43,492 bases of DNA from positions 1-43,492 of the forward strand of contig NZ_JABBGA010000033.1 of the NCBI RefSeq assembly GCF_012927165.1, written 5' to 3'. This document shows positions 3,247 through 27,761 of the stretch, in pieces. The notes below the pieces were generated by a model that searched no databases, had not been told where the DNA came from, and saw nothing but the letters and a program-made list of their open reading frames with translations. Numbering within the stretch: the first letter of the stretch is position 1; every line of letters begins with the position of its first letter. The position numbers and the translations under genes were made by a program. This DNA comes from Zoogloea dura. Lineage in GTDB: Bacteria; Pseudomonadota; Gammaproteobacteria; Burkholderiales; Rhodocyclaceae.

Positions 3247-4065
3247 TCAGGCCGCCATCCGCGCAGCGCCCCGCAGCCGCGCCACCGCCAGAGCCGCCAG
3301 GAAGCTGGCCAGGACGCCTGCAATCACCCCCAAGCCCAGTAGCAACTCCTTGCCCTCGCCCCAGGCCTCAAGTGCCGGCCAGGACATCCGGAGCAGCCCG
3401 TAAGCTGCGACCAGCAGGCTCACCCCCCCCACAGCCAGCGCCATGATCCTCGATGCCAGGCGGGCCACCTCGTCCGCACGCGCAATCAGGCGGGCGATCC
3501 AGAAGCCATTGACCCCATCGGCGATCAGCATCCCTGCCATGAAGACCAGCCCCAGCAAGGCAGCCGGCCCCCAGCCACCGGCTTGCACCCCGGCCATGGC
3601 AAACAGCGCGGCCTGACTCACCGTATCAAAGGACAGGGCAAACAAGGCCCCCACCAGCGCCACCCCCACCGGGTGACCGACCCGCAAGCTCCCCAGCCAG
3701 CGCCCCTTGAGCCCGACCGGATGCACCAACTCGTGTGGATCCGCGGCAAAGACCGCACCAAGATTGAGCACACCGAGAAGCGCCAGGAAGCCGATGGAGA
3801 TCCAGGCCCCCGACGTCTCCAGCCATTCGGGCACGGCCCAGTCGCTGGACAGCAGGCTGACCCCCACCGCGACAGTCACCACCACCGACCCGTGCCCCAG
3901 CGAGAACAGGCTTCCGCAAAACCGGGCCAGGCGGGGCCGCGCCACGAGATTGCAGCGGGTCAGCCCGTCGATCGTGGCGAGGTGGTCCGCATCGAATCCG
4001 TGCTTGATGCCCAGCATGAAGACCAGCAGGGCGAGAGAGAGGGTGTCTGAAGGCAGCGCATGCAT
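3247..4065 (-). CDS. NiCoT-family nickel/cobalt permease
   Basis: A 272-residue polytopic inner-membrane protein of the HoxN/NixA/HupN family, which takes up nickel and/or cobalt. The metal-selectivity helix reads GIKHGFDADHLATIDG, matching the family HX4DH motif. The further signatures LGHGSVV, LFALSFDTVSQAALF and GMLIADGVNGFW are also present. About eight hydrophobic segments are visible. The complete hyp set 3 kb away needs nickel, so supply for [NiFe]-hydrogenase is the likely use. An inverted repeat resembling a NikR site lies 21-47 bp upstream of the start. The symbol is left blank because nickel versus cobalt preference cannot be read from sequence. Confidence 0.92.
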   Translation of the reverse strand: MHALPSDTLSLALLVFMLGIKHGFDADHLATIDGLTRCNLVARPRLARFCGSLFSLGHGSVVVTVAVGVSLLSSDWAVPEWLETSGAWISIGFLALLGVLNLGAVFAADPHELVHPVGLKGRWLGSLRVGHPVGVALVGALFALSFDTVSQAALFAMAGVQAGGWGPAALLGLVFMAGMLIADGVNGFWIARLIARADEVARLASRIMALAVGGVSLLVAAYGLLRMSWPALEAWGEGKELLLGLGVIAGVLASFLAALAVARLRGAARMAA

Positions 4066-6817: not shown

Positions 6818-7864
6818 TCAGCAGATCCGCGGCAGGGGCTCGCCAGCCAGCCAATCGACCATGCGGCGTCCGCCCAGCATGGTCTGCATCTGCACGAAGC
6901 AGCGCTCATCGGCCACCACCTCACCGATCAGGGCAGCCTGACGCCCCAGCGGATGGGCGCGCAGCGCTGCCAGCAGGGGCGCCGCCTCGGCGCCCGGGCA
7001 TACCGCCAGCAGCCGCCCCTCGCTGGCCAGGTTCAGGGGGTCCAGCCCTAGGAACTCGCAGGCTGCGGCGACCGCCTGAGACACCGGCAGGGCAGACTCC
7101 TCCAGCACGATCCCCACCGTCGATTGCCGGGCAATCTCGTTGAGCGTCGCCGCCAGCCCGCCCCGGGTCGGATCCCGCATCAGGCGCAAACCCGGCGACG
7201 CCTCCAGCACTGCTGCCGCCAGCCCGTGCAGGGCCGCCGAATCCGAGCGAAGATCACCCTCGAAGGTCAAGCCCTCGCGCTGCGCCATGATGGCCATCCC
7301 GTGCTCGCCCAGGGTGCCGGACACCAGCACCGCATCCCCCGGCCGTGCAAATGCCCCCGATAGTTCCCGATCGGCAGGCAAGGCCCCCATCCCGGTGGTG
7401 GTGATGAAGACGCCATCGCCCTTGCCCCGCTCGACCACCTTGGTATCGCCGGTGACGATGGCCACACCGGCATCGGCCGCCGCACGCCCCATGCTCTCTG
7501 CAATGCGCAGCAGATCAGCCAGGGGAAAGCCCTCCTCAAGGATGAAGCCGACGCTCAGGTAGAGGGGACGGGCCCCCATCACCGCCACATCGTTCAACGT
7601 GCCATGGACGCTGAGGCTGCCGATGTCGCCACCCGGGAAGAACAGCGGCGACACCACGTGGGAATCGGTGGACACCACCAGCCGCTCCCCCGGCGCCAGG
7701 GCCGGCAGCACCGCGCCATCGTCGCCCCGCACCAGCCAGGGATTGTCGAAGGCACGCCGGAAGACTTCGCCAATGAGCTGTTGCATGGCCCGCCCGCCAC
7801 CGCCGTGGGCCAGATCCACATGGCCGCTGCGCAGATCCAGGGGACGAACATAAACGCTCTTCAT
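6818..7864 (-). CDS. hypE: [NiFe]-hydrogenase maturation protein HypE
   Basis: HypE dehydrates the carbamoyl group that HypF places on its C-terminal cysteine, making the thiocyanate used as the cyanide ligand of the hydrogenase iron. The 348-residue protein has the ATP-binding AHGGGGRAM near the start, GDIGSLSVHGTLNDVAVMGA, VTGDTKVVERG and LMRDPTRGGLAATLNE. It ends in the obligatory PRIC, whose Cys is the carrier residue. I chose the ATG at 7864, which gives a normal HypE N-terminus. An in-frame ATG at 7948 overlaps the stop of the upstream receptor gene (TGATG) and would add 28 non-homologous residues, so translational coupling from there is possible. It is the last gene of the hyp cluster. 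Confidence 0.96.
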   Translation of the reverse strand: MKSVYVRPLDLRSGHVDLAHGGGGRAMQQLIGEVFRRAFDNPWLVRGDDGAVLPALAPGERLVVSTDSHVVSPLFFPGGDIGSLSVHGTLNDVAVMGARPLYLSVGFILEEGFPLADLLRIAESMGRAAADAGVAIVTGDTKVVERGKGDGVFITTTGMGALPADRELSGAFARPGDAVLVSGTLGEHGMAIMAQREGLTFEGDLRSDSAALHGLAAAVLEASPGLRLMRDPTRGGLAATLNEIARQSTVGIVLEESALPVSQAVAAACEFLGLDPLNLASEGRLLAVCPGAEAAPLLAALRAHPLGRQAALIGEVVADERCFVQMQTMLGGRRMVDWLAGEPLPRIC

Positions 7865-7947
7865 GGGGGAAACCGCAAAGTAGAGGAGACCCCCATGATG
7901 CCAAGGAAGCCTTCGCCCTGCCCAGTGGAGGCCTCCCCGGGAGAGCA

Positions 7948-9978
7948 TCAGGAGTGAGTCAGCTGGCTCTCCGTGAGCTGCTTGAGGATGTCGGCCACTC
8001 CGCGGGCGTGGTCTGCCGTGCCCGCCGTCTTGCCGCTGAAGGATTCAATGTTAGCGAGCAGGCCCGACAGGTTGGACACGCCACCGGCCTGGCGCTCGAT
8101 CTCGCCAGCCACCCGGGCGATCTCGCTGGCCAGGGTGGAGATGTCGACGCCGATCTCGCCGGCACTGGCGCGGGACTTCTCGGCCAGCTTGCGCACCTCG
8201 TCGGCCACCACCGCAAAACCACGCCCGGCCTCTCCCGCCCGCGCCGCCTCGATGGCCGCGTTGAGGGCCAGTAGATTGGTCTGGTCGGCGATCTGCTGGA
8301 TCACCTCCACCACGCCCTGGATGCGCCCGCTGGCATCCGCCAGCTTGCGGGCGCTGCCGGCCGCATCGGCCGCCTGGCGGGTGAGGTCACCCACCGTTTC
8401 ACTGGCCGAATGCACCACCTGGCCCTGCTCCTGGATATGGCCGGTCAGTTGCCCGACCGAGGCATACAGGTCACCCGCACAGGACTCGAGCTGATGCGCC
8501 GTATCGTCGCGCAGGGCGTGGGAGGCCCTGAGCGTCTGCCCCAGACTGTTGAGGCCAGTCACCACCTGCGCGATGCTGCCGTCGAAGCTGGCAGGGTCCA
8601 GCCGGCTGTCGAAGGCCTGGGCCTGGTAATCGGCGATCTGCTTGACGATGACCCGTGACAAGCCCGACAACTTGGCGCTCTGACGGCGCAGGAAGAAGGC
8701 CTTGAACTCGCCGTAGTGCGCCACGAAGTTATCGACGTAATCGTCGCGGAAGGAAGCCCCCTCCGGCACCCTGAAGAAGAACACGGCCGTCAGGGTCTGG
8801 TTGAGGTTGAGCCCCAGGATCTCACCAAAGGTCGAGAAGCCCGCCAGCTGGGTCCCCGGCAGGGCCCTGCCGATCTCGGCCAGTTCCCGGTCGTTGTAGA
8901 GACGGCGCAGGATGCAGTCGTTGAGGATGCCGGCCACTGGGGCACCAGGCTTGCCCGCCATGAAGGACTGGAAGTCCCGCGCGGTGCTCTGGACCAGGCC
9001 GGTCCGCCGCACCAGCACGAGGTCCTCGCCCGGCGAGATGTCGCAGTAGAAATTGACCCGACCAGCCTCCACATCCACATTCACCACCGAACGGACATAG
9101 ATCTCCTTGCCCACCTGGATCGCGAAGGAATGATCGGCCAGCTTGCTCTCCAGCTCTGCCGGCCGGCACCGGAAGTGTGTGCACAAGGCCTCCACGAAGG
9201 GCACGATGCGGCCATCCGCGGCAATCACGTCGCTCACGTAACGCTTCTCGAGAGATGCCCCGATGACCGGGAAGCGCACCCCCTCCGGCTCGAAGTTCTG
9301 GCTCTTGAGCACGCCGAAGCGGGTGCCCTTGGCCACCTTCAGGAAGGCCACCAGCGCATGGTTCTCGAGCTTCCGGCTGCCATCGTGCAGCCAGGTGTTG
9401 CGGAAATCGAACTTGCCGCCGGCTGAGCCCCCGACAAACAGGCAAGGGAAGCGCCCGGATTCATACAAGGCCTCCATGAAGAAGGACTCGGAGGCGGACA
9501 GGCCGTCGAAGAGCACCTGGGCGATGGTGTCACGATGGTCGATCTCGAAATCGACCCGGGCCGAACCGATCTGCCGGGCAATCCGCTCCACCCGTTCCTT
9601 GACCCCGATCTCCGGCTTGCCCCGGCGCAGATCCTCGCAGCCCAGGGGAATGGCCAGCACCTGGGCACGGGCGATCAGGGAAGCATCGAAACACTGGATC
9701 ACCACCCTGTCCCAGCTCTCGCCAGTCCGGCAGTAGAGGGCATCGCCGCTGCTGCACAATTCGCCAGCCGTGGAGCAGAGCATCACCGGCACCCCGGGGA
9801 AGCGCGCGGTCACGGCACGCGCCACCGGCTCGATGTCCACATGGGGCGACACATAGCCGCTGACGAAGGTCGGAACAATGCGCGCAGCCGCCAGCTGCGC
9901 CGACACTTCGGCAGCACGGCACTGCAGGGTCAGGACGCCCGGGGAGGGAAGGCGTCCCAGCTTCTTGAACAGGTTCAT
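7948..9978 (-). CDS. Cytoplasmic FIST-domain methyl-accepting chemotaxis protein
   Basis: A 676-residue chemoreceptor without signal peptide, membrane helices or HAMP domain. FIST_N covers about residues 30-240 ([43 protein letters not shown]). FIST_C covers about 250-400 ([20 protein letters not shown] through [13 protein letters not shown]). The C-terminal third is an MCP signalling domain whose tip reads [20 protein letters not shown], then [18 protein letters not shown], the CheA/CheW contact. FIST domains are intracellular sensors of small ligands; some family members (NosP) bind haem and sense NO. Start is ATG at 9978 behind AAGGAGATAAGA. It interrupts the hyp gene order between hypD and hypE and has its own sigma-28-like promoter. 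The ligand is unknown. Confidence 0.93.
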
Positions 9979-10019
9979 TCTTATCTCCTTGCCGGTCTCG
10001 GTGCGGACCTTATTGCGGC

Positions 10020-10046
10020 ATATCGGCCCCGAACGCCGGACATTAA
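10020..10046 (-). promoter_or_regulatory. Sigma-28 (FliA)-type promoter for the FIST chemoreceptor
   Basis: On the reverse strand GCCGATAT (10020-10027) matches the FliA -10 consensus GCCGATAA at 7 of 8 bases. It is preceded by exactly 11 bp and then TTAATGTC (10039-10046), a partial match to TAAAGTTT. The spacing is that of flagellar-class promoters, and the gene it reads into is a chemoreceptor 42 bp downstream. Confidence 0.65.
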
Positions 10047-10100
10047 CCCTGGAGAACAAGAATTTTTTCAGGAAAATCCAGATCGTTTCCTTTTGATACA

Positions 10101-10120
10101 AGCACTTGCATGCAAGCGCT
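10101..10120. repeat. 20-bp near-perfect palindrome after hypD
   Basis: The sequence is a palindrome around a central CTTGCATGCAAG (12 bp perfect), flanked by AGC/GCT with one mismatched pair. It begins 4 bp beyond the hypD stop and lies ~55 bp upstream of the sigma-28-like promoter. There is no T-run, so it is not an intrinsic terminator. It could be an operator for the receptor gene. Confidence 0.5.
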
Positions 10121-10123
10121 CCA

Positions 10124-11257
10124 TCATGCAGCAGCTGCTCCAGGATCACGGCTACGCCCGTATGCGTAGTAGGCCGCACACGCCCCCTCGGACGACACCA
10201 TGCAGGCGCCCACCGGTGTTTCCGGCGTGCAGACGGTGCCAAAAAGGCGGCAATCCCGAGCTCGCGTGACGCCTCTCAACACCGCCGCACACTCGCAGCC
10301 CTTGTGATCGGGGATCGGGGAGTACTCCAGCCCGAAGCGGCGCTCCGCATCGAAACCGGAAAACGCATCGGCCAGGCGCAGGGCAGAGCGCGGCAGGATG
10401 CCGAGCCCCCGCCATTCGAAATCCTCCCGCAGCGTGAAGACCTCGGCCATCAAGGCCTGCGCCTTGAGATTGCCGTCAGCCGTCACGGCCCGGGTGAACT
10501 CGTTCTCGACCTCGGCCCGGCCCTCGTTCACCTGGCGCACCAGCATGCGGATCGCCTGCATCACATCGAGGGGCTCAAAGCCGGCGATCACCACCGGCTT
10601 GCGGAATCCGGCGGCAAAGGGCGCGTAGGGCCGGGTCCCGATCACCGTGCTTACATGGGCCGGGCCGATGAAACCGTCGATCAGCGCCGCGCCGCCTCCC
10701 TCCCCGCCCTCGGCGATGGCGCGGATGGCCGGCGGCGTGAGGACATGGCAGCACAGCACGCTGAAGTTGCTCAGCCCCAGCCGGGCCGCCTCGCGCACTA
10801 CCAGGGCGGTGGGCGGGGTGGTGGTCTCGAAGCCGATCGCAAAAAACACCACCTGCCGCACGGGCTCCCGCTGCGCCAGGGCCAGCGCGTCCATGGCTGA
10901 ATAGATCATGCGCACATCGGCGCCCATGGCCCGCGCCTTGAGCAGGGACATGCCCCCCGCGGCGGGCACCCGCAAGGTGTCGCCATACACGCAGAGCGTC
11001 ACCGGGCGGTCGAGGGCCAGGCGCAGCACCTGCTCGATCCGGCCGGTGGGCAGCACGCAGACAGGGCATCCCGGCCCGTGGATCAGGCGCAGCTCCGGCG
11101 GCAGCAGGTCTTCCACCCCATAGCGGGAGATGGCATGGGTATGGCCGCCGCAGAACTCCATGAAGGCATAGGCCCGCCCAGGTTGCACCTCACGCCGGAG
11201 CGCCTCCGCCAGGGTCCGGGCGATTCCGCCGTCACGGAAGGCCTCCAGGTATTTCAC
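10124..11257 (-). CDS. hypD: [NiFe]-hydrogenase maturation protein HypD
   Basis: HypD is the iron-sulfur scaffold on which, with HypC, the Fe(CN)2CO group of [NiFe]-hydrogenase is built. The 377-residue protein carries the family motifs [28 protein letters not shown] and [10 protein letters not shown]. The C-terminal cysteine set includes [11 protein letters not shown] and [20 protein letters not shown], which hold the [4Fe-4S] cluster. Start is GTG at 11257, overlapping the hypC stop in GTGA and preceded by GGAGAGGTC, so translation is coupled to hypC. A longer frame upstream is only the shadow of hypC. HypD is followed by a 145-bp gap and the FIST receptor rather than by hypE directly. Confidence 0.97.
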
Positions 11258-11487
11258 GGATCGACCTCTCCAGCCAGCCCGGCCTCGCGCATCAGGGCCA
11301 GGGTCTCCTCGGCCTCCGCTGGATCCAGCCGGGTCAGCGCAAAGCCCACGTGCACGATCACGTAGTCGCCCGGTGCCACGCTGTCCAGCAGGGCCAGCGA
11401 GACGATCTTGCGCACACCGCCGAGCTCCACCAGCCCGGTGTCGCCGGGCAGGCACTCGATGACTCGCGCCGGAATGGCCAGGCACAT
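11254..11487 (-). CDS. hypC: [NiFe]-hydrogenase maturation chaperone HypC
   Basis: HypC/HupF-family chaperone of 77 residues that carries the iron-ligand group from HypD to the hydrogenase large subunit. The start MCLAIPARVIE has the essential Cys2, which becomes N-terminal region and binds iron. The body (GDTGLVELGGVRKIVSLALL, GDYVIVHVGFAL) is canonical. Start is ATG at 11487 with GGGAGG upstream inside the end of hypF; a longer reading to 11706 is the shadow of hypF. Its stop overlaps the hypD GTG. Two bases separate it from the hypF stop. Confidence 0.97.
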   Translation of the reverse strand: MCLAIPARVIECLPGDTGLVELGGVRKIVSLALLDSVAPGDYVIVHVGFALTRLDPAEAEETLALMREAGLAGEVDP

Positions 11488-11489
11488 GG

Positions 11490-13871
11490 CTACAGGCCTC
11501 CCCCCATCAGTTGCGCCCGGGCCACCCAGGCCTGGCCCAGGGACAGGCCGCCATCCCCGGCCGGCACGTGCTGCGCCTCGAACACCCTGAAACCGCGCCC
11601 CGTCAGGCGCTGACGCATCCCCACAGCCAGCAGGCAGTTGTGCATGCAGCCACCGGAGAGCACCAGCGTCCGCACGCCGGTGGCGTGGGCGGCATCCGCC
11701 AGCCACTCCACCAGGGCCTCCAGCAGGTTGGCGTGGAAATGGGCGGCCCCCCTGGCCGCATCGTTCTCTCCGATCAACTGGTTGAGCAGCGGATAGAGGT
11801 TGAGCACAGACAGGCCGCTATCCGGCCGGACATCGATGTGATGCCCCCCCGGCAGCGGCAGGATGGTGCCGAACCGCCTGGCCAGGGACTCCAGCTGCAT
11901 CGGCGCCTGCCCTTCGTAGGTCATGCTTTCGCACACCCCGAGGAGGCCCGCCGCGGCATCGAACCAGCGCCCGAGGCTGGTGGTCGGCGGGCAGCGGCTC
12001 CCACGCATGAGCATGCCGAGGATCTGCTCCACGTTGTCCCGGGCGCCAAAGCGTTCGATCGCCTCGTCGCTCCGGCCCAGGGCATGCAGCACGCCGACGG
12101 CCATGCGCCAGGGCTCACGCGCGGCGCGGTCGCCCCCGGGCATCGGCAGCGGGCTGAGGTGGCCGAGGCGCCGGAAGCCTGCGCCATCCACCCACAGTAG
12201 CTCGCCGCCCCACGGCATGCCGTCAGTGCCCAGCCCGACCCCGTCCACAGCCAGGCCGAGCACGGGCTCATCGAGCTGATGCTCGGCACACACCGCCGCA
12301 ACGTGAGCGTGGTGATGCTGCACCGGAACAGTGGCGACATCGAAGCGCTCCGCGAGGGCATGGGCCAGGCGGGTCGAGTAGTAATCGGGATGGGCGTCGT
12401 GGGCGATCGCCTCCGGCCGCTGGGCCAGGATGCCTAGCAGGTGCTCGGCAGCCTCGTCGAGCGCCTGGCAGGATGCCGGGTTGTCGAGGGATCCGATGTG
12501 CTGGGACAGGAAGGCTTCACGGCCCCGGATCACGCACAGGCTGGCCTTGAACAGCGCGCCCAGCGCCAGCACCGGCGGGCCCGCCTCGCCCAGCGGCAGC
12601 GACAGGGGCGTGAAGCCCCGGGCCCGGCGCAGGAACTGCACGCTGCCGCCGACGGCCCCCTCGACCCGCCCGGCGGGGAGATCCGGCCGCAGGCGCAGCA
12701 CCGAATCGTCGCAGCGGACCACGATGTCCCGATCGTGCATCAGCAAGACGTCGGCGATCTCGGCCAGGCGCTCGAAGGCTTCCCCGTTGCCCTTCACCAG
12801 CGGCTCGCCATGCGGGTTGGCACTGGTCATCACCAGGGTCAGGGGATGAGGCTCGGCCAGCCAGGCCATGCCTTCCGGACGTTCGGCCGCCTCGTGGAAC
12901 AACAGGGTGTGCAAGGGCGTGTAGGGCAGCATCACGCCCGCCTCGTCCAGTCCGGGCGCCAGCCCCGGCAGGGCGGCGTCAAAACCGTCCCGCTTTTCCA
13001 GCAGCACGATGGGCCGCTCAGGACTCTCCAGCGCGGTTTCCTCCGCGGGTGAGAGACGCACCCAGCGCCCTGCACTGGCGGCATTCAGCACCATGATGGC
13101 CAGGGGCTCGTGGGGCCGCCCCTTGCGCGCCCGCAGACGGGCCACCGCATCGCCGTTTCGTGCATCGCAGGCCAGGTGGTAGCCCCCCACACCCTTGATG
13201 GCGACGATCTCGCCCAGCCTCAGCCGACGCAGGGTCTCGGCGACCGGATCGCGCGCCAGCGCCCGCACGCCATGGGATTCATACAGTTCCAGCTTCGGCC
13301 CGCAGACCGGACAGGCGTTGGGCTCCGCATGAAAACGCCGGTCCCCGGGATGGAGGTATTCCGCCTCGCAGGCCGGGCATTGCACGAAATCCGCCATGCT
13401 CGTCCTGGCCCGGTCGTAGGGCAGGCTGCGGGTGATGGTGTAGCGGGGGCCGCAGTAGGTACAGTTGATGAAGGGGTAACGCCAGCGCCTGTCGTCGGCA
13501 TCGAAGAGCTCCGACAGGCAGGAGGGGCAGACTGCGATATCCGGCCCGATCGAGGTGGCCACGCCGCCTTCCACGCTGGGCAGGATCACGAAGTCCTTGT
13601 GGGTGAGATCCGGTGGGATCACCTCGGGCTCGATCGCATCCACCCGCGCCAACGGCGGTGCCTCGGTCACCAGGCACTGGGTGAAGGCATCGAGGACGGC
13701 CTCGCTGCCCTGGATCTCGATCTCGACGCCTTCGCCGTCGTTGCGGACCCAACCAACCAGGCCCAGCTGGTTGGCAAAGCGATAGACGAAGGGCCGGAAG
13801 CCGACCCCCTGGACGACGCCCCGCACCTTCAGCCGGCGGGCCACGCGGGTAGGATCAACAATCAGCAGCAT
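11490..13871 (-). CDS. hypF: Carbamoyltransferase HypF
   Basis: HypF makes carbamoyl-adenylate from carbamoyl phosphate and ATP and transfers the carbamoyl group to HypE. The 793 residues show all four parts in order. These are an acylphosphatase domain (~10-100, [19 protein letters not shown]), two zinc fingers (CPSC/CTYC and CPAC/CPVC, ~105-190), a YrdC-like domain (~200-390, [27 protein letters not shown]), and a Kae1-like domain (~400-790, [20 protein letters not shown]). Length is typical. Start ATG at 13871 overlaps the end of hypB by 10 bp. Cytoplasmic. No lesion is seen. Confidence 0.97.
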
Positions 13872-14734
13872 GAGCGCTGTGCCTCCTGCCCGGCCTGCTC
13901 CGGACGCCCCTGGTCCCGCGCCCCTGCCCCTCCGGCATCCACAGCCCGCGCCTCCAACCAGGCCAGCCAGGCATCCATGCCCTCGCCAGTCCGCGCCGAC
14001 AGCAGCAGCACCTCCAGCTGCGGATTGATCCTCCTGGCGAACTCCAGCGCACGCTCGACGCTGAAATCCACGTAGGGCAGCAGATCGGTCTTGTTGAGCA
14101 GCATCAGGCGCGCGGCGGCGAACATGTCCGGGTACTTGAGCGGCTTGTCATCGCCCTCGGTGACCGACAGCACCACCACCTTGGCCGCCTCACCCAGATC
14201 AAAGGCCGCCGGGCAGACCAGGTTGCCGACGTTCTCGATGAACAGCAGGCTCCCCTCGACCGGCTTCAGCCCCGGCAGCGCCCGGCCCACCATCCGGGCG
14301 TCCAGGTGGCAGCCCTTGCCGGTGTTGATCTGCAGCGCCGCCACTCCGGTGGCGCGGATCCGCTCTGCGTCGAAGCAGGTCTGCTGGTCTCCCTCGATCA
14401 CGGCGACCGGCCAGCGTCCCTGCAACGCCTCGACGGTACGCACCAGCAGGCTGGTCTTGCCTGCGCCAGGGCTGGACACCAGGTTGAGGGCCAGGATACG
14501 CCGCGCCATCAGCCAGCGCCGGTTGGCGCCGGCCTCGGTATCATTGAGCGCCAGGATGTCACGCTCCACGCGCAGGCGGCGGGTCCGTTCCCCACCCTGG
14601 CCGGAGCTCCGGCCAGGGAAGAACCCGAACGCCACCGGCCCCCGCAGCGGGCGATAACGCCCCGGCAGCAGAGCTTCCTGCCCGCCCCCTTCGATCCGGA
14701 CTTCACCGGCTCCACATCCACACACACCACACAT
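13862..14734 (-). CDS. hypB: Hydrogenase nickel-insertion GTPase HypB
   Basis: HypB works with HypA to deliver nickel to the hydrogenase large subunit in a GTP-dependent step. The 290-residue protein begins MCGVCGCG, the N-terminal CxxCxC high-affinity nickel site. It has the P-loop SSPGAGKTS, the switch and metal region [12 protein letters not shown] and [12 protein letters not shown], the segment [12 protein letters not shown], and the guanine motif NKTD. Unlike many HypB proteins there is no histidine-rich nickel-storage stretch between the Cys motif and the GTPase domain. Start at 14734 follows the family. An upstream in-frame ATG at 14752 overlaps the hypA stop as ATGA and could be the coupled start, adding MRVVAS. 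Confidence 0.96.
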
Positions 14735-14748
14735 GCTTGCCACCACCC

Positions 14749-15090
14749 TCATTCAACTTCCAGTTCAAGGACCTGCATCCGGTTGCCGCCGGTCACTTCC
14801 ACCCCGTAGGCACCGCAGGCCGGACAGGGCTCGTACAGGGCATGCAGCACCATGCTACTGGCGCAGGCCCGGCACCATCCCTGCCCGGGCACCTGTTCGA
14901 TACGCAATTCAGCCCCTTCCGCCGGGCCACCCTTCATCACTGCGTCAAAACAAAAGCGCAAGCTCTCGGGCTCGACGGCAGCCAGCTCGCCAAGGGCCAG
15001 CACAACGGTCCTGACCCGCTCGAAAGGATTCCGCTCCCGGGCCTCATCGACGATCCCGCGGATCGATTCCGCAAGCGACATTTCATGCAT
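14749..15090 (-). CDS. hypA: Hydrogenase nickel-insertion protein HypA
   Basis: HypA binds nickel through its N-terminal MHE motif and partners HypB in loading [NiFe]-hydrogenase. The 113-residue protein starts MHEMSLAES. Its zinc site is formed by CRAC and CPAC, the usual CX2C-X(n)-CX2C pair, around residue 75-95. Start is ATG at 15090, with CGGAGA just upstream. It is the first gene of the leftward hyp operon. The 257-bp divergent interval to the next gene (15,091-15,347) should hold the operon promoter; I see no convincing sigma-54 or FNR site there. Confidence 0.96.
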
Positions 15091-26138: not shown

Positions 26139-27761
26139 TCAGACCCTGAAACGGGACACAGTCTGCTGCAGCTGGCCCGCCAGCTCTTCCATGTCGCGGG
26201 CTGCGTTGGCGGTGGCCTCGACCGATTCGTTGTTTTCCCTCGCCATCGCGGCGATGTTCTCGATGCTGTTGGCCAGGGCCGCGCTCGCCGCACGCTGCTG
26301 CTCGGTGGCCTCGGCGATCTCGTCGAGCCCCTGCCCGACCTCCACCACAGATTCGTTGGCCGCCGCGATGGTGCCGGATACGACACCCACCGCGCTACGG
26401 CTGGAAGCCAGGTGATCCAGGCCACGGTGGATGGACTCGCGAACCGCCACCGACTGCTTGCTGAGGGTCGACGTCACCGCGTCGATCTCGCCGGCGGAGC
26501 GGGCCGACTTCTCGGCCAGCTTGCGCACCTCGTCGGCCACCACGGCGAAGCCGCGCCCCTGCTCACCCGCCCGCGCCGCCTCGATCGCGGCATTGAGGGC
26601 CAGCAGATTGGTCTGCTCGGCGATGTCACGCACTTCCTGGGTCATGGCGGTGATCGAGGTGGTGGATTGAACGAACTGCTCCACCGAATCCGCCATCTGC
26701 CGGACCGCATCTTCGGCATGGCTGACTTCGGCCACCAGGGACTCCAGCGTCTTGCTACCTTCATGAGCACGCCGCAGGCTCTCCTGCGAGCGCTGATGCA
26801 CGCGCTCCGCGCTGGTGGCCACGCTGGCGATGTTGGCTGCCATCTGCTCGACCGAAGCCGCCGCGTTGACCGACTGGGCGTTCTGGTTGTGGGAGCCCTC
26901 GGCCACCCGCCCGGCGCTGGCCGACAACTGGTGGGCCGATCCGGTGACCCGCGCTGCCGACTCGGAGACATGGCGCACCAGCTGGGCGATGGTGCCAAGC
27001 ATCTCGTTGAAGGTGCTGGCGGTACGCCCGATCTCGTCGCGGCCTGCCACAGCCAGGCGGCGGGTCAGGTCGCCCTCGCCCTTGGCGATCTCCTCCAGGC
27101 TGGCGTTCATGGCCTCCAGCGGCGACACCACGAAGCGGCGGATGAACATCACGACAAACAGGATCAGGGGCAAAGAAACAATCAGGGCGGCAAAGATGCT
27201 CTTCCACATGAACGAATCAACGGCTGCATTCACCTTGTCGAGAGAGACCTTCATGCTGACCAGCCCCAGCGGAGTGCCGGCCGCCACTTGGTGGCAGCCC
27301 ATGCAGTTCTTGCCGAGATAGTTCTCGGCGGCCAGTGCCGGCTTGACCACCCGCAGGTACTCACCGTGCTTCGGATCCCTTTCGACCCGGATGACTTCCT
27401 TGCCGCTGCCCAGAGCAGCCTTCTCGTCTTCATCCAGGGGCGGCTGAGGCCGGTTGCCCGGTCCGAACTGTTTGCTGACGCCTTCACCACGAATCACCAC
27501 CAGGTCCTGAATGATGGACAACTGCTTGATCTGGTCGAGGAACACTTCACGCTGCCCCACCGTGCCGGTGATCATCATGCCGGTGAGGCCAGCCATGGTC
27601 ATTTCGTGGACGCTATGGGCAAAATCCTGGGCCTGGGCAATGGCCGTATCACGATTGACCCGGGTCTCCCAGGCGATCATGCCTCCCCAGGCGATGACGA
27701 GCATCAACCATATGGCGCCGGTGAGACGAAGCCATATGGGCGTATCCGCAAGCTTGCGCAT
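26139..27761 (-). CDS. Methyl-accepting chemotaxis protein with periplasmic c-type haem motif
   Basis: A 540-residue transmembrane chemoreceptor. TM1 lies at ~residues 12-31 and TM2 at ~188-207. The periplasmic sensor between them ends in CMGCHQ, a CxxCH c-type haem-attachment motif at residues 153-157. A HAMP domain (~208-262) and a full MCP signalling domain follow, with the tip [20 protein letters not shown], then [20 protein letters not shown]. Haem-containing chemoreceptors of this layout (single CxxCH in a PAS-like periplasmic domain) are known from Geobacter and serve redox or gas sensing. Start ATG at 27761 is 38 bp beyond pth's terminal region. A sigma-28-like promoter lies upstream. 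The ligand is unproven. Confidence 0.94.

Follow-up and report, generated by a model that had tools for sequence, protein, structure and literature searches.

A FIST-domain chemoreceptor gene with a sigma-28-like promoter site, lodged between hypD and hypE in Zoogloea

The closest described proteins are the FIST-MCPs, in which FIST, FIST_C and MCPsignal domains are combined, and the receptor analysed here has the same three domains; FIST-MCP relatives outside Zoogloea and Denitromonas mostly lie away from hyp genes, whereas this one is encoded inside a hyp operon. NosP, a haem and NO sensor that works with a histidine kinase, has the FIST sensor in common with the receptor, but NosP is a separate protein acting on a kinase while in the receptor the FIST sensor and an MCP domain form one protein, and its gene is neighboured by hypD and hypE rather than by a histidine kinase gene. 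A comparable fusion is CdpA of Vibrio cholerae, which is described as FIST-FIST_C with an EAL domain, and with haem (PMC8846402); in that account as in the receptor a FIST sensor is joined to an output domain, the output being c-di-GMP hydrolysis in CdpA and predicted chemotaxis in the receptor. The order hypA-B-F-C-D-E of Rhodocyclales hyp operons is kept around the receptor, but hypD and hypE are here split by it. A table of Dechloromonas hyp genes lists no receptor (PMC2907700). The accessible open-access full text on FIST, MCP, hyp and Zoogloea hydrogenase yielded no description of a receptor in a hyp operon, and within that literature the claim of a first-pass annotation that this setting had not been described before stands.

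The receptor and the hyp genes around it

The window, that is, the whole stretch of DNA analysed, is an entire contig of 43,492 bases from a 5.83-Mb genome. As the first-pass annotation had it, a full FIST-MCP gene lies there between hypD upstream and hypE downstream (7948..9978, minus strand; 676 residues, with orthologs in other genomes). Its start is the ATG at 9978, preceded by a Shine-Dalgarno-like AAGGAG that is read from the sequence at 9985..9990 (minus strand). The FIST_N domain (residues 39-248; 9235..9864, minus strand; PF08495, E 5.4e-29) and the FIST_C domain (residues 270-388; 8815..9171, minus strand; PF10442, E 8.1e-16) score 101.9 and 58.8 bits against Pfam cut-offs of 23.2 and 28.5, which places the sensor in both families, and the MCPsignal domain (residues 523-644; 8047..8412, minus strand; PF00015, E 5e-32) scores 111.6 bits. 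The tip of the MCP hairpin falls near residue 577, with 94 residues from tip to C-terminus; tip residues are invariant in an alignment of close orthologs (A1), and the MCP part matches MCP structures in a sequence search of the PDB. A Pfam scan of the receptor returned no HAMP match. The peak Kyte-Doolittle mean over a 19-residue window is 1.6, at residues 92-110 within the FIST domain, and the receptor is probably soluble and cytosolic, as judged from hydropathy rather than from a transmembrane predictor.

On the minus strand the genes run hypA, hypB, hypF, hypC, hypD, receptor, hypE, with starts called, where stated, by a gene caller trained on the genes of the window. They comprise hypA (14749..15090, minus strand; Pfam PF01155, start by gene call), hypB (13862..14752, minus strand; Pfam cobW/HypB/UreG), hypF (11490..13871, minus strand; Pfam), a gene that we take to be hypC from its position and the protein start MCLAIP rather than from a Pfam scan (11254..11487, minus strand; gene call), hypD (10124..11257, minus strand; Pfam PF01924, E 1.5e-145, start by gene call) and hypE (6818..7864, minus strand; Pfam AIRS and AIRS_C). 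These genes had been described as otherwise gapless, which is nearly so from hypA through hypD, where they are packed with almost no gaps, but 145 nt lie between hypD and the receptor, which thereby breaks the tight packing. A TGATG overlap had also been noted between the receptor and an upstream start of hypE. The letters are present, and the long hypE reading frame does extend to 7948, but in 16 of the 17 other-genome loci with hypE the match to that frame begins only at residue 27-29 (at residue 9 in locus L007), so that the ATG at 7864, 83 nt past the receptor stop codon, is the likelier start by conservation as well as by gene call. Translational coupling of receptor and hypE through the TGATG was rejected because the extension is unconserved in those 16 loci.

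The scanned reading frames of the window include none recognised as a structural hydrogenase gene, and a PF00374 search puts none on the contig. Weak PF00374 scores had suggested a hyp operon in a genome lacking hydrogenase, a possibility that was rejected since contig C10 of the same genome carries a hydrogenase large subunit that we take to be HoxH-like, with the motifs RLCGIC and DPCLSC. Sharing the hyp contig are a NicO-type nickel transporter gene (3247-4065, minus strand) and a second chemoreceptor with HAMP and MCPsignal domains (26139-27761, minus strand). The one other FIST protein found in the genome is a standalone protein of 383 aa (L111:11419-13340; genome G000, contig C37), directly preceding a protein judged by eye to be GGDEF-like; at 21% identity to the receptor, it is a putative NosP at most.

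Distribution and descent of the receptor

The family search covered 395 genomes of the bacterial family, drawn from a larger group. A long ortholog with at least 59% identity is present in 42 of them (in G245 the match spans residues 4-600 only); G363 has a receptor piece cut by a contig end, and ten further genomes carry a FIST-MCP at 36-43% identity over a part covering most of the sensor. Within Zoogloea, the genus of the window, the ortholog is present in 18 of 21 genomes and HypD in all 21. The arrangement hypD-receptor-hypE is found in 15 of the 18 carriers, and the contig end in G363 cuts a sixteenth locus adjacent to hypD. In the remaining two, G261 and G332 (loci L034 and L033), the locus is reduced to hypF and receptor, flanked by the outer neighbours seen in the other genomes, a different cluster elsewhere holds hypABCDE, and the G261 receptor gene contains an in-frame TAG. 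The three Zoogloea genomes lacking a receptor (G164, G248, G372) have hypD-hypE spacings of 20-42 nt. Full clusters such as that at L060 run hypA-B-F-C-D-receptor-hypE and continue with genes for a formyl-transferase and enoyl-CoA-hydratase protein, a sigma-54 activator with a receiver domain, the small subunit of a hydrogenase and a protein resembling the large subunit, for which we assume the names hypX, hoxA, hoxB and hoxC. Several Zoogloea also have a 118-residue reading frame between receptor and hypE (L106:16095-16451, with like frames in L008, L013 and L066); that of L106 has no Pfam match and overlaps the hypE start.

The receptor gene is under purifying selection. Across ten Zoogloea pairs its dN/dS is 0.03-0.12, beside 0.02-0.13 for hypD, hypE and hypF, and in comparisons of the window with its two nearest relatives the receptor values (0.032 and 0.046) are the lowest of the four genes, which is not the case in other pairs. 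Taken with placement in most of the sampled genus and with recurrence elsewhere, this argues that the receptor is no random passenger of one genome.

Outside Zoogloea the picture is different. Adjacency to hyp genes in family genomes, which the first-pass annotation had proposed to score, holds for hypD in 16 of the 18 Zoogloea carriers, but of the 25 orthologs that the family search found in other genera only 4 stand at hypD-receptor-hypE, three in Denitromonas (G060, G175, G199) and one in another genus (G213). The flanks of the other 21 contain no hyp genes over about 9 kb on each side for 20 of them, and over a shorter distance on one side for G161. Of 227 relatives the best 80 were kept, which span many genera at 53-98% identity, with Zoogloea as the nearest named ones; among these 80, hyp genes lie near the receptor only in 17 Zoogloea-group loci and in Denitromonas L145, with hypF alone at L120 and L122. 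Receptors of the family occur in Rhodocyclales, Pseudomonas, Geobacteraceae and others, and their linkage to hyp is not constant, 21 of those 25 orthologs being unlinked and HypD missing from 36 of 69 carriers outside the genus. That close relatives might carry the receptor elsewhere had been named in advance as a sign of chance insertion; such relatives exist outside Zoogloea but not inside it.

Even within Denitromonas the receptor is patchy (3 of 10 genomes in the family search, 3 of 8 in the HypD survey). Sixteen receptor-free hypD-hypE junctions comprise ten of 14-130 nt, one of 528 nt (G143) and five of 679-871 nt, all in Denitromonas (L112 and L194-L197). No receptor remnants were detected at E 1e-4 in these five; the L112 junction looks noncoding by eye, with apparent palindromes. 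Ten loci of distant FIST-MCPs include a single one with such a receptor beside hyp genes, that of G066 (L059:6867-11173), where the receptor gene follows hypB at a distance of 63 nt and moaA and hypA lie upstream. Running divergently from this locus are genes encoding Proton_antipo_M and NADHdh domains, which we take to be group-4-hydrogenase-like.

HypD was sought in carriers outside the genus, 25 from the family survey and 47 from the 64 loci L130-L193, with three genomes common to both. It was found in 24 of the former and 11 of the latter (2 of 33 in Pseudomonadaceae), giving a joint count of 33 of 69 with HypD and 36 without, where absence from a draft genome is no proof. The 36 comprise 31 Pseudomonadaceae together with Pseudothauera (G174), Methylobacillus, Novimethylophilus, Pokkaliibacter and a Methylophaga MAG. 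HypD is present in each of the seven Geobacter/Desulfo carriers searched, and among 80 genomes within the family in 42 of 43 carriers versus 30 of 37 non-carriers (p 0.02, with kinship ignored). A ligand tied to hydrogenase only is unlikely for the receptor family as a whole given the 36 carriers lacking HypD, and the signal sensed is probably not hydrogenase-specific.

In a tree of 95 receptors the hyp-linked ones fall in three places, Zoogloea, Denitromonas and G213, with the Denitromonas receptors branching beside unlinked Thauera and Pseudothauera; the starred branches of that tree are by themselves compatible with one origin. For an approximately unbiased (AU) test the 95 rows were reduced to 53 by dropping 25 from Pseudomonadaceae, nine distant ones, six from Zoogloea and two long ones. 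A single clade of hyp-linked receptors (16 versus 37 rows) was rejected at p 0.0031, and at p 0.0017 with G213 left out, an omission decided on once the tree was known. Nor do the receptor-bearing operons form one clade in a 37-row tree of hypD plus hypE (p 1e-80). The hypD-receptor gaps of Zoogloea, Denitromonas and G213 are unrelated to one another (z at most 2.4), against a likeness of z 1.9-16.7 within Zoogloea and 7.5 within Denitromonas. This lack of a single clade, combined with unrelated gaps, implies either two to three entries at the same junction or an ancient linkage with many receptor escapes, and an ancient receptor-hyp linkage with later escapes is compatible with the AU rejection.

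A sigma-28-like site ahead of the receptor

The gap between hypD and the receptor contains a sigma-28 (FliA)-like site, TTAA-N15-GCCGATAT (10020..10046, minus strand), also designated the GCCGATAN site, which lies 41 nt before the start codon and has two mismatches to TMAA-N15-GCCGATAA, presumably the sigma-28 consensus and used here for scoring. Sites scoring at least 10 of 12 are found in 18 of 18 Zoogloea loci, 40-46 nt ahead of the start codon, a level reached by 1.9% of dinucleotide shuffles (60 per locus), and a consensus-type site at a fixed distance is what membership of the sigma-28 regulon would require. Because these loci are related, the 18 do not amount to 18 independent events; because two-mismatch sites are common in the genome (402, against 259 in a reversed control), the support comes from conservation and not from the single match.

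Beyond the genus, sites of this kind are present in all three Denitromonas loci, in six of six Azoarcus-like orthologs that lie away from hyp and in 18 of 33 Pseudomonadaceae, and are poor or missing in G213 (a score of 8 of 12), in Methyloversatilis (none of 6 loci), in Geobacter/Desulfo (2 of 9) and in the distant FIST-MCPs (0 of 8). One of the 16 receptor-free hypD-hypE junctions scores 10, a weak control given that most of these junctions are short. For calibration, the genome sites with one mismatch or none were taken, of which there are 33; 30 were read and ten downstream proteins scanned, which proved to be a CheW plus REC protein (cheV-like), MotA, FliJ, two MCPs, a Cache-HAMP protein, an HD-domain response regulator, a PAS-GGDEF protein, a CHASE-PAS protein and one with no family; for many of the 30 sites no flagellar gene could be recognised downstream.

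Neither a sigma-70-like site nor a terminator was found in 7700-10300, and the lack of a terminator there makes read-through from the hyp genes possible. A sigma-54 scan gave two weak hits in 19 loci. With its conserved sigma-28-like site the receptor resembles a gene of the flagellar regulon and not a plain operon member, and it looks to be flagellar-regulated through a sigma-28 promoter of its own.

Explanations for the placement

There is reason to think, with moderate confidence, that the gene encodes a flagellar-regulated cytosolic chemoreceptor, probably for a general ligand, that has lodged and been kept in a hyp operon. Its FIST_N/FIST_C sensor would read a small intracellular ligand, probably a general rather than a hydrogenase-specific one, and pass the signal via a coiled coil to the MCP hairpin, which should couple to CheW/CheA and hence to the flagellar motor. 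The gene would be a cassette at the hypD/hypE junction, equipped in Zoogloea and Denitromonas with a sigma-28-like promoter, so that its synthesis should follow the flagellar regulon, hyp read-through may add to it, and hypE with the genes downstream could be transcribed from this promoter as well. Two sets of observations count against this reading. A purely general receptor does not predict recurrence at the same junction in lineages that form no clade, nor the G066 locus; and the excess of HypD among family carriers and its presence in every searched Geobacter/Desulfo carrier sit uneasily with a general ligand, most HypD-less carriers being Pseudomonadaceae.

It might instead be supposed that the receptor came as a mobile cassette, settled at an operon junction that tolerates inserts and has been passed on since, its position having no function. 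The patchiness within Denitromonas agrees with this, as do the long receptor-free junctions of five Denitromonas loci, which imply that inserts are tolerated at this point. We nevertheless consider it an unlikely account, if one with appreciable weight, since chance would hardly place the receptor at one junction in three lineages whose gaps are unrelated, and the receptor has been retained through deep divergence within Zoogloea.

The proposal of the first-pass annotation was that the receptor steers cells toward settings that favour hydrogenase production (H2, low oxygen or a metabolite such as a carbamoyl or cyanide species). In a fuller form of this reading the cells would also seek places where the enzyme is useful, a metabolite of maturation might be the cue, and the receptor would be co-expressed with the hyp genes. 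What that annotation observed of the placement has turned out stronger than it knew, for the arrangement is found in most of the sampled genus, recurs in Denitromonas and in one further genus, and involves a gene under purifying selection. The shared junction, the L060-type clusters in which hypX, a sigma-54 activator and further hydrogenase small and large subunits share the locus, the co-occurrence with HypD within the family, the distant FIST-MCP beside hypB-moaA-hypA in G066 and the two Zoogloea loci from which hypCDE have gone, in one of which the receptor gene has acquired an in-frame stop, may all be cited in favour of the proposal. The proposed tie to hydrogenase synthesis is weakened, however, by the sigma-28-like site of the receptor itself, by the 21 family orthologs outside the genus with no hyp gene in the fetched flanks, and by the carriers outside the genus that have no HypD, Pseudothauera among them; the hydrogenase meaning is doubtful, and we judge steering of this kind distinctly unlikely.

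That the receptor is a NosP-like haem or NO chemoreceptor placed incidentally among hyp genes, which would be compatible with a flagellar-regulated receptor lodged in the operon and would name its ligand, seems improbable, for although haem- or NO-binding FIST proteins are described in two reports (PMC8846402, PMC12570481) and all 22 aligned close orthologs have H198 and H207, these histidines are not kept throughout more distant FIST-MCPs, the receptor shares little sequence with the standalone FIST protein of its own genome, and the PDB sequence search found no FIST structure.

The repeated use of one hyp junction is odd. A bolder conjecture, to which we would give little credence, is that hyp operons have captured FIST chemoreceptors repeatedly and independently at the same junction in Zoogloea, Denitromonas and G213, and beside hypB in G066, and that the Zoogloea and Denitromonas cassette adds sigma-28 input to hypE and, in full clusters, to hypX, hoxA and further hydrogenase subunits, with motility and hydrogenase maturation wired both ways.

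For the FIST-MCPs, a little-studied class of receptors, these loci provide a testable setting across a genus and a candidate promoter of their own, together with a caution that the signal of a receptor is not to be read from its operon neighbours alone. Should the flagellar promoter indeed drive hypE and the hox regulators, swimming and hydrogen metabolism would be connected, in these flocculating bacteria of wastewater, in a way that had not been suspected.
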